Shown here piece by piece: positions 46,621 to 57,331 of a stretch of 64,000 nucleotides of DNA. The position numbers and the translations under genes are program-made. How positions within the stretch are numbered: the stretch's first letter is position 1; each line of letters opens with the position of its first letter. The DNA lies in NCBI GenBank assembly GCA_039801505.1, contig JBDRUV010000002.1:248001-312000 (forward strand), read 5' to 3'. Below the pieces are notes generated by a model. It was not told the origin of the DNA. It saw only the letters and a list, made by a program, of their open reading frames with translations, and ran no database searches. This stretch comes from a candidate division WOR-3 bacterium (GTDB lineage Bacteria > Hydrothermota > Tepidihabitantia > Tepidihabitantales > CAIPLT01).

Positions 46621-46669
46621 ATCATCATATATATAGATGCCCAAAAACTCTAAAATGGGGAAAAATTTT
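46621..46669 (+). repeat. AT-rich dispersed motif, copy B
   Basis: ATATATAGATGCCCAAAA, CTCT, then AAAATGGGGAAAAATTTT. It shares most positions with copy C just upstream of the replicon-like gene (55755-55800). Confidence 0.55.
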
Positions 46670-55721: not shown

Positions 55722-55754
55722 TAGCACTGAGGACCGTGGTTTAAAATTCTTAAA

Positions 55755-55800
55755 AATTTTTTCCCCATTTTGGTCGTTTTGAGCATCTTATATATGTAGT
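55755..55800 (-). repeat. AT-rich dispersed motif, copy C, at the 5' end of the replicon-like gene
   Basis: In the minus orientation it reads ATATATAAGATGCTCAAAA, CGACC, AAAATGGGGAAAAAATTTT. The plus-strand side has TATATAT ending 6-7 nt before ATG 55801 but no good -35 box, as in a regulated promoter or operator. Confidence 0.55.
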
Positions 55801-56394
55801 ATGAAGTATACGATTACAATCAACCAGGGGCTGGTAGTTAGTACCGGACTAGCTCGGCAATTAGATATTATCGATCTGGCGATTATCGATTACTTAAAAG
55901 ATTTTAGTCTCTATCCTAAGGCTAAGCGTCTGGTCTATGAGGACGAAAACTATATCTGGCTTAACTACCACCACCTATTGGCGAGTCTACCGATCTTACA
56001 TATCCGGGATATTTCCCGGATTTCCCGTCGGATTAAGAAGCTCCGGGAGTTAGATCTGATTAAGACAATTAGGATGCCAGATAATACCCTGTATTATATC
56101 TTTACCCCAGCTGGTTATCAGCTGTTTTTTAGCCCTAAAACGGCACCGAAAAAGTTATCCACACCTCTTGCTTTAAAGCAAGAGACCTGTTGCTTTATAG
56201 CAAGACCCCCTATTGCTTTAAAGCAAGAGCACAATAATAAACAAAATATCAATAATAAACAAAGTGCAATATATAAAAAAGAATTACAACGCATAGCGTC
56301 TTGGGAAAATAAAGAAAACGGACTAAAAAGCCTTAGCCAGATTCTAAAAAACTATAACCTAAAAAGGAGGCTTTATGACGAGCCTAAACAATAA
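55801..56394 (+). CDS. Winged-helix initiator-like protein with origin-like DNA inside its gene
   Basis: 197 residues. Residues ~20-110 fit a winged-helix/replisome-organizer domain: LDIIDLAIIDYLKDF, YIWLNYHHLLASLPIL, DISRISRRIKKLRELDLIKT, YYIFTPAGYQLFF. A low-complexity linker (~125-165) is encoded by the DNA that carries a DnaA box, three iterons and AT-rich direct repeats, then a helical C-terminus (~165-197). This is the layout of the lambda O protein and its internal origin. I recognise no specific family. It overlaps the next gene by 20 nt. Confidence 0.6.
   Translation: MKYTITINQGLVVSTGLARQLDIIDLAIIDYLKDFSLYPKAKRLVYEDENYIWLNYHHLLASLPILHIRDISRISRRIKKLRELDLIKTIRMPDNTLYYIFTPAGYQLFFSPKTAPKKLSTPLALKQETCCFIARPPIALKQEHNNKQNINNKQSAIYKKELQRIASWENKENGLKSLSQILKNYNLKRRLYDEPKQ
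56155..56263. other. Origin-like cluster: DnaA box, three palindromic iterons, two AT-rich 13-mers
   Basis: TTATCCACA at 56155-56163 is a perfect DnaA box. CTTGCTTTAAAGCAAG at 56167-56182, TTGCTTTATAGCAAG at 56190-56204 and TTGCTTTAAAGCAAG at 56213-56227 are palindromic repeats starting 22 and 23 bp apart, about two helical turns. AATAATAAACAAA occurs at 56233-56245 and 56251-56263 (18-bp period), resembling the 13-mers of a DNA-unwinding element. The order box, iterons, AT-rich is that of iteron origins. Function is inferred. Confidence 0.6.
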
Positions 56395-56773
56395 ACTTAG
56401 GGCTCTTAAAGAGCTCTATAGTCGCTATGAAGCCTTATGCGATGAAGCCAAAAAGGCGACCGTGGAAGCTGATATCGTATACGACCTCTATCTCTCCAAA
56501 GCTCAAGAGATTGCCCGACTGATGCAGAAGCGCAACTTATCAGAGATCACGACCCGTGATGGCAAGTTTTCTTTGGTGCGCGAGGTCTCAGCCAAGATCA
56601 TTGATCGAGCCAGAGCTGAAGCATATGACGAGAAGTGTCAGGTGGGGATATTTCACAAGGTGATCTCAGGGATGCGTCTTAAGGCTTGGGCGAAAGAACT
56701 CTTACAACTCGGTCTTGAGATTCCGGATTTTCTTGTGGTCAATGAGCACTGGAATATCCGGATTGATAAATAG
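56375..56773 (+). CDS. Small coiled-coil-like protein of the replicon-like element
   Basis: 132 residues with AAGGAGG before ATG 56375. The N-terminal ~50 residues are helical and charged (LRALKELYSRYEALCDEAKKA, EIARLMQKRNLSEI). The rest is mixed (TRDGKFSLVREVSAKI, GMRLKAWAKELLQLGLEIPDFLVV). It resembles small phage early proteins in size and shape, but I do not recognise a family. It overlaps the winged-helix gene, so the two are co-expressed. Confidence 0.55.
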   Translation: MTSLNNKLRALKELYSRYEALCDEAKKATVEADIVYDLYLSKAQEIARLMQKRNLSEITTRDGKFSLVREVSAKIIDRARAEAYDEKCQVGIFHKVISGMRLKAWAKELLQLGLEIPDFLVVNEHWNIRIDK

Positions 56774-56810
56774 ACTGGGGAGAGGTTTTTAATGCTAAGG
56801 CTTTTTCCTC

Positions 56811-56855
56811 GCCCCAAGGGATACGGTCTCCGGACCGTATCTTGGATCATGGGGC
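56811..56855. repeat. GC-rich palindromic hairpin inside the replicon-like element
   Basis: ATACGGTC-TCCG-GACCGTAT (56821-56840) is a perfect 8-bp stem with 4-nt loop, extended by CCAAG/CTTGG and an outer GCCCC/GGGGC. It contains the ACGGTC/GACCGT words of the dispersed family and lies between two genes of the element. Confidence 0.65.
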
Positions 56856-56914
56856 CTAAAAACTCGAGCCGGCAAGGGTGCTCGGGTGGATGGTCCAGAA
56901 AGGAGGTGAGAAGG

Positions 56915-57286
56915 ATGGCAACTCGATCTGGCTTGCGGCGACTTGAGAAATGGGATGCCAAGTATGCTGGTGATGTCTTACCGGAGCGGCTGAAGGAGTA
57001 CAAAGCCAAGATGCGCGAGCAATTGTCAATGATCTTTCCGGAGCAAGAGACCTTAGAGAACGAGGTCAAGTTGATCTTAGCTGAGGCCGGCATTCACACC
57101 TACTTAAATCCGGCCTATTTAGGTTTTGCGCGTGAGATCTATCGATTAGCCCGACGGTTTTCTGGTCGGCAACTTGTAATAGCCACAGATATTGTCTTAA
57201 ACAAATGGGCGAGCCGCGGACTTGAGCGTGATCTTTTAGAGCGAATCCGCAATAGCGTATTTGCCCTGACAGCACCGGAGAGCTAA
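56915..57286 (+). CDS. Small protein of the replicon-like element
   Basis: 123 residues from ATG 56915, which has the perfect site AAAGGAGGTGA at 56899-56909. The longer frame from 56792 crosses the hairpin and is rejected. The N-terminus is basic (MATRSGLRRLEKW); helical throughout, with KLILAEAGIHTYLNPAYLGFAREIYRLARRF and ATDIVLNKWASRGL. No known family. It ends 17 nt before the hairpin at 57303. Confidence 0.55.
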   Translation: MATRSGLRRLEKWDAKYAGDVLPERLKEYKAKMREQLSMIFPEQETLENEVKLILAEAGIHTYLNPAYLGFAREIYRLARRFSGRQLVIATDIVLNKWASRGLERDLLERIRNSVFALTAPES

Positions 57287-57302
57287 TGCATGAGGATAAA
57301 AA

Positions 57303-57331
57303 GTCGGGTGGTGCCTTGCCCGCCACCCGAC
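57303..57331. terminator. Strong hairpin between the replicon-like element and ndk
   Basis: GTCGGGTGG (57303-57311) and CCACCCGAC (57323-57331) pair perfectly with an 11-nt loop. There is no T run after it on the plus strand, so it is not a standard intrinsic terminator. It may be a rho-aided stop or an element boundary. Confidence 0.4.

Follow-up and report, generated by a model that had tools for sequence, protein, structure and literature searches.

A predicted phage-type replication module with an Adnaviria coat protein homologue at several chromosomal sites of a WOR-3 bacterium

Introduction

Within a stretch of 64,000 nucleotides from a candidate division WOR-3 bacterium (the window), a gene for a 197-amino-acid protein harbors what looks like a replication origin in its own coding sequence. 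This raises the question of what kind of replicon the gene belongs to, and whether it is a remnant or a module still in use. An origin inside the initiator gene is known from gene O of bacteriophage lambda (PMC5043065). A preliminary description of the locus had assigned the gene to a lambda-O-like initiator and regarded it as a possible plasmid-like relic; it overlooked that the third gene of the locus encodes a homologue of the coat proteins of Adnaviria, the A-form-DNA viruses. The genomes compared here are metagenome-assembled and fragmented. They include the source genome of the window (G000), a sister species (G001), representatives of three related genera (G002 to G004) and further members of the WOR-3 order.

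Results

The initiator gene

The product of the first gene matched PHROG 428, a family of replication initiation proteins (Table 1), and one of its relatives additionally matched phrog_18020 (replication initiation, O-like). No Pfam family was found for it, neither an O-family nor a Rep_3 or RepA domain. In the AlphaFold model, the N-terminal domain is a confident winged helix (means of 10-residue blocks approximately 73 to 92 for residues 11 to 110). The winged-helix domain and the iteron-coded linker given in the preliminary description were thus recovered, the former as a model, whereas the helices it placed in the tail are unproven, since pLDDT is below 50 there. The best PDB matches in a fold search were MarR and Fur regulators and ORC subunits, which are generic winged helices and not discriminating, and a PDB sequence search with the initiator profile yielded noise only. 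The N-terminal domain is under purifying selection (pN far below pS, G000 versus G001). No P-type helicase loader adjoins the gene, its neighbors being the DUF7307 gene and the coat homologue. Neither integrase, primase nor helicase was found in the window cassette; as the preliminary description had noted, none of the ORFs neighboring the window locus reads as an integrase.

Table 1. Features of the window at and around the initiator locus (positions are those of the window).
Feature	Position	Strand	Remarks
Further promoter-like motif	46628..46669	-	initiator and coat gene absent; followed by no more than a short non-coding leader
Left end of repeated element	55743..55869	+	the same 127 bp form the end of contig C5 (copy L014; the contig breaks there)
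Promoter-like motif TTTTCCCC-N16-GCATC-NN-ATA	55759..55792	+	in all element copies and two further coat-gene paralogues
Initiator gene, 197 aa	55801..56394	+	winged-helix N-domain, iteron-coded linker, short tail; PHROG 428 4.7e-6
Perfect DnaA box TTATCCACA	56155..56163	+	kept in deleted copies and in G001 and G002
Palindromic iteron 1	56165..56184	.	20 bp, perfect
Palindromic iteron 2	56190..56203	.	14 bp, one mismatched pair
Palindromic iteron 3	56213..56226	.	14 bp, perfect
AT-rich 13-mer 1 AATAATAAACAAA	56233..56245	+	presumed unwinding element; 18-bp repeat pair kept across genera
AT-rich 13-mer 2 AATAATAAACAAA	56251..56263	+	18 bp from the first
Small inverted repeat ACGC-ATA-GCGT	56289..56299	.	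close to the right limit of the origin module
Gene 2, 132 aa, DUF7307 / Pam3 gp33-like	56375..56773	+	Pfam 36.7 bits, cut-off 27
Gene 3, 123 aa, Adnaviria (A-form-DNA virus) major coat protein homologue	56915..57286	+	profile and fold
GC-rich hairpin 3' of gene 3, GTCGGGTGG...CCACCCGAC	57303..57331	+	sequence; probable terminator / right limit of cassette

The origin block and selection on its DNA

The DnaA box, the palindromes, the 13-mers and the small inverted repeat at 56289 all lie within the part of the gene that encodes the linker and the tail. The box is the sole perfect DnaA box on both strands of the whole window, and each 13-mer sits within a 14-mer CAATAATAAACAAA (at 56232 and 56250). 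In G001, the counterpart of the 56289 inverted repeat reads AACGC-TAAA-GCGTT in the alignment. Order and coordinates of the DnaA box, palindromes and 13-mers are those of the preliminary description, and the arrangement recurs in other genera. Its three palindromes are indeed present at a spacing of 22 to 23 bp, with the qualification that the second is imperfect.

The origin block is selected at the DNA level. Between G000 and G001, pS of the initiator N-domain is 0.83, close to that of the control gene fthfs (0.80, likewise saturated), and it drops to 0.14 in the palindrome linker and to 0.00 in the 13-mer block; these blocks are short (27 and 15 codons, respectively), and the contrast is large. 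This contrast, together with the layout of the single perfect box, the iterons and the 13-mers, excludes a chance origin of the repeats. With the PHROG 428 match, the internal elements and the pS contrast, the sequence data support the earlier assignment as a lambda-O-style initiator gene with its predicted origin inside.

Relatives of the initiator

With the initiator profile, the protein was found in five of the 28 genomes of the WOR-3 order, all belonging to one family. Orthologues without iterons at this position would have refuted the preliminary description; besides the window gene there are four full-length relatives, and those of G001, G002 and G003 have palindromes at the position, so that the description is not refuted. 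The relative in G004 is short and no palindromes were seen in it. The relatives in G002 and G003 have the same layout with unlike palindromes (CTGTTCG..CGAACAG and TGTTGCA..TTGCAACA, respectively), and both layouts end with AGCACAAT followed by an AT-rich repeat pair at 18-bp spacing. No perfect DnaA box was found in the G003 relative. The same 13-mer pair is thus found across G001, G002 and G003 despite the differing palindromes of the other genera. Such a combination of fast-changing iterons and a fixed unwinding-type element is what would be expected for a co-evolving pair of initiator and origin.

In the fourth genus (G004), the initiator relative adjoins a second replication initiator (phrog_270, 4.7e-23), and genes reading as DnaB-like, CHC2-primase-like, excisionase-like and tyrosine recombinase-like are found in the same element. 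The stretch (L133) looks like the replication module of an integrative element. In IMG/VR, three contigs carry one distant relative (25%), which precedes a gene looking, by reading, like a primase-polymerase/helicase. No relative was found by tblastn in INPHARED phages or PLSDB plasmids, nor in an exact-peptide scan of GTDB contigs.

Copies of the element and their chromosomal sites

At least five dispersed copies of the element, including that of the window, were found by search in G000. Copy L014 looks like an assembly break inside the repeat, since the 127 bp it shares with the window correspond to a common assembler word length. The copies L012, L013 and L015 open with the same promoter-like motif and lack the winged-helix part, which is deleted with differing endpoints. 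The DnaA box is retained in all of them; of the palindromes, three, two or one are left, and of the 13-mers two, two or one. A deleted copy with a single palindrome would hardly be a working origin. The palindromes of these three copies are of the TGTTCAAT..ATTGAACA type and unlike those of the intact window copy.

Written as TTTTCCCY-N16-GCATC-NN-ATA, the motif matches exactly at eight places in the genome, compared to none for the reversed pattern used as control. A Xer dif site was considered for it and rejected, as the sequence following the TATATA stretch is not conserved among the copies. The further motif of the window that stands without initiator or coat gene (Table 1) lies behind a gene pair resembling a sigma factor and a regulator, and in G008 (L057/L094) a coat gene is located behind a similar-looking pair. 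Inverted repeats of the GATACGGTC type recur by motif sites (window 56820-56845, L034, L015 and L088); these could act as terminators or belong to a small RNA.

Each of the four sites at which G001 carries the element coincides with a site in G000: before fthfs (L041 in G001, L012 in G000), between a TPR gene and rpsM (L045 and L013), beside a lipoprotein gene (L087 and L014) and beside rpmF-plsX (L132 and the window). Within G001, the copies are near-identical where comparable, and its contigs break in them. Since the sites are old, being shared with G001, but the copies are alike, the copies appear to undergo concerted evolution, for which gene conversion or exchange with an extrachromosomal form might be responsible. 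On G001 contig C200 (L132, positions 109-1641), rpmF-plsX is separated from the element by an inserted DNA-methyltransferase-like gene and a further small gene, possibly a restriction-modification pair. In G002 to G004, no element is present at the rpmF-plsX site, and the region upstream of it is not collinear with the window. Because the window contig runs through the repeat, the sequences on either side of it might have been joined wrongly, and G001 provides no check because it breaks at the same place.

Gene 2 and the coat protein homologue

The start of gene 2 overlaps the stop of the initiator gene, and its product compares to the G001 counterpart at 55%. For gene 3, a profile of 29 family members was searched against the entire PDB. 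The top five matches were exclusively Adnaviria coat proteins: SIRV2 (3j9x, 1e-5, positions 4-110 of 122), SSRV1 (6wq0, 4e-5), AFV1 (two entries, 8e-4) and SFV1 (6d5f, 0.01). The rest of the list contained one more AFV1 coat (0.98) and otherwise noise. The AlphaFold model of gene 3, calculated without templates, has a pLDDT of 88, and in a Foldseek search with this model ranks 1 to 9 were all taken by Adnaviria coats (probability 0.99 to 1.00, query TM up to 0.73); the other matches, one further entry of the same coats excepted, scored low. Sulf_coat_C (PF12193) exceeded its own cut-off in 10 of the 28 genomes of the order and in none of 14 control genomes. The window protein itself reached 19.2 bits, below the cut-off of 25.2, so that the assignment rests on the family, and the E-values of the family against the coats are modest (1e-5). 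By profile and predicted fold, gene 3 is a homologue of the Adnaviria major coat protein.

The gene 3 family is found in all 28 genomes of the WOR-3 order, with 3 to at least 28 copies each, and in none of 119 other genomes of the phylum. Most paralogues are solitary, stand amid household genes and lack an initiator, which indicates that the coat family also exists independently of the replication cassette. Some sites are conserved between species or genera, e.g. by dinB in G000, G001 and G002. A coat gene is linked to the initiator or to gene 2 in G000, G001, G002 and G003, i.e. in four of the five genomes with an initiator; none was found in the stretch of the G004 element that was read. No other adnavirus genes were seen near the coat paralogues. 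A 31-bp match at C5:65183 was considered as a further copy of gene 3 and rejected.

Several arrangements of coat-like genes were observed in addition. Tandem pairs occur in families f4 and f5 (L075, L076, L077, L096, L097 and L098); the second, shorter paralogue gave no Adnaviria match in the PDB by itself, and its identity as a coat therefore rests solely on its similarity to gene 3. In G003, an N-terminal HTH_31 domain (Pfam 5.2e-7) is fused to a coat-like domain (L122:249-965). In G008, genes for an endolysin-like peptidase (phrog_894, 4e-14) and for a replication-O-like protein come after a coat gene (L094:4971-6404), and the three possibly form a small viral operon. One G000 paralogue (L030:1570-1680, contig C1 at 118.9k) adjoins what appears by eye to be a selenocysteine-tRNA-like gene, and a tRNA-Ser-like gene is located upstream of the coat gene in L076. 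An exact-peptide scan of GTDB contigs with the coat returned one WOR-3 record only (UBA3079). The placement of the source organism in WOR-3 was taken from this named relative rather than from a marker tree. No coat relative was found in IMG/VR, and phage records searched with one coat representative yielded nothing.

Discussion

The anatomy of the origin block, the selection on its DNA, the multiple copies at conserved sites, the coat homology and its linkage to the initiator are observed. Taken as a whole, they are probably best explained by a phage-type replication module which resides at several chromosomal sites of this WOR-3 lineage together with a coat homologue. From a single shared promoter, the lambda-O-like initiator, a gp33-like accessory protein and the coat homologue would be expressed. 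Initiator dimers would bind the palindromes in their own gene and DnaA the adjacent box; the two AT-rich 13-mers would melt and the host replicative helicase would be loaded. The module might then be copied locally or as an episome, and recombination with such copies, or gene conversion, would keep the chromosomal copies alike. The coat homologue might wrap the copied DNA, either in a virion or as a packaging protein.

The alternative that comes closest is a coat family domesticated for the cell, e.g. for protection or compaction of DNA similar to spore SASP, one member of which is merely carried by the cassette. Its presence in every genome of the order, mostly as single genes amid household genes, the conserved sites such as that by dinB and the HTH_31 fusion are in line with this, and it has a real though somewhat less than even chance. 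It does not readily account for the linkage of the coat gene to the initiator or gene 2, for the promoter motif common to both, or for the coat gene of G008 that precedes endolysin-like and replication-O-like genes. Rather unlikely, in our estimation, is that the deleted copies are origin decoys, i.e. transcribed spare origins which titrate the initiator made by a related phage or plasmid and so block it, the intact copies being the replicon or its captured source. Three copies with different deletions have kept promoter and origin module, and their palindromes, being unlike those of the intact copy, would match another initiator. However, the G000 assembly yielded no initiator with palindromes of that type, and one deleted copy is reduced to a single palindrome and a single 13-mer.

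The remaining two alternatives are considered improbable. The matches to MarR and Fur proteins at the head of the fold list, and the position of solo copies directly before genes looking like those of secreted proteins, would fit a MarR-like transcriptional regulator with the palindromes as operators and the solo copies as regulated leaders. Against such a regulon, the palindromes are intragenic and lie by a DnaA box and two 13-mers held constant at the DNA level, the family match is to replication initiators, one relative is found amid primase-, helicase- and integrase-like genes, and the palindromes of the solo copies are unlike those in the intact gene. Slightly less credible still is that the copies are defunct leftovers of inserted plasmids or phages, for which the three deleted copies and the element-free rpmF-plsX site in three related genera could be cited. 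Against this, the two species that have the sites in common are saturated in synonymous changes, and still the module has stayed intact and alike in each of their genomes, with purifying selection acting on the initiator N-domain and the coat. For the same reasons, and with the cassette and its intact genes being one of at least five copies, the plasmid-like relic of the preliminary description is not upheld as stated.

A more far-reaching reading sees here a bacterial order with a filamentous system for packaging A-form DNA, either living or domesticated, and with dispersed coat genes related to archaeal Adnaviria, which one lineage has coupled to self-contained phage-type origins amplifying the DNA to be packaged; the coat lineage of Adnaviria would thereby gain its first branch in bacteria. 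We regard this as speculative and doubtful at present. According to reviews, the Adnaviria coat protein type is unconnected to any virus of bacteria (see also PMC7189273), and no report of such a bacterial coat family was found in the open-access literature, a scope outside which bioRxiv preprints fall. With a bacterial family that shares this fold and sequence throughout an order, the origin of the Adnaviria realm and that of A-form DNA packaging become testable in bacteria. The homogenised chromosomal copies, some of which consist of promoter and origin only, lend themselves as a natural system to tests of origin decoys and of the chromosomal use of phage origins.

Among known systems, iteron plasmids with Rep_3 or RepA proteins differ in that the window initiator has neither Pfam domain and no plasmid relative in PLSDB. 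Initiators of PHROG 428 and 270 and integrative elements such as that of G004 share the family match, the G004 homologue being part of an integrase-primase-helicase element, whereas the window cassette is devoid of all three genes. With lambda O and its origin, the locus shares an initiator gene in which palindromic iterons precede an AT-rich unwinding region, and transcription through the origin (PMC5043065). It differs from lambda in the missing Pfam O-family match and P-type loader, in the DnaA box by the iterons, in the multiple chromosomal copies and in the coat gene. The Adnaviria coats (SIRV2 3j9x, SSRV1 6wq0, AFV1 3fbz/5w7g and SFV1 6d5f) resemble gene 3 in near-full-length profile alignments and in the same helical fold, and the tandem pairs of f4 and f5 recall the paired coats of lipothrixviruses and tristromaviruses. 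Adnaviria, however, have archaeal hosts, and their coat genes are accompanied by virus genes, while those of WOR-3 are dispersed in multiple copies over a bacterial chromosome, mostly as single genes with no other adnavirus gene seen nearby. The run-off replication origin of Bartonella with its gene transfer agent (PMC2697382, PMC3610622) is tied to caudoviral packaging genes, in contrast to the several predicted origins and the putative filamentous-virus-type coat found here. It resembles the WOR-3 module in that a phage-derived origin is kept in the chromosome and tied to packaging genes.
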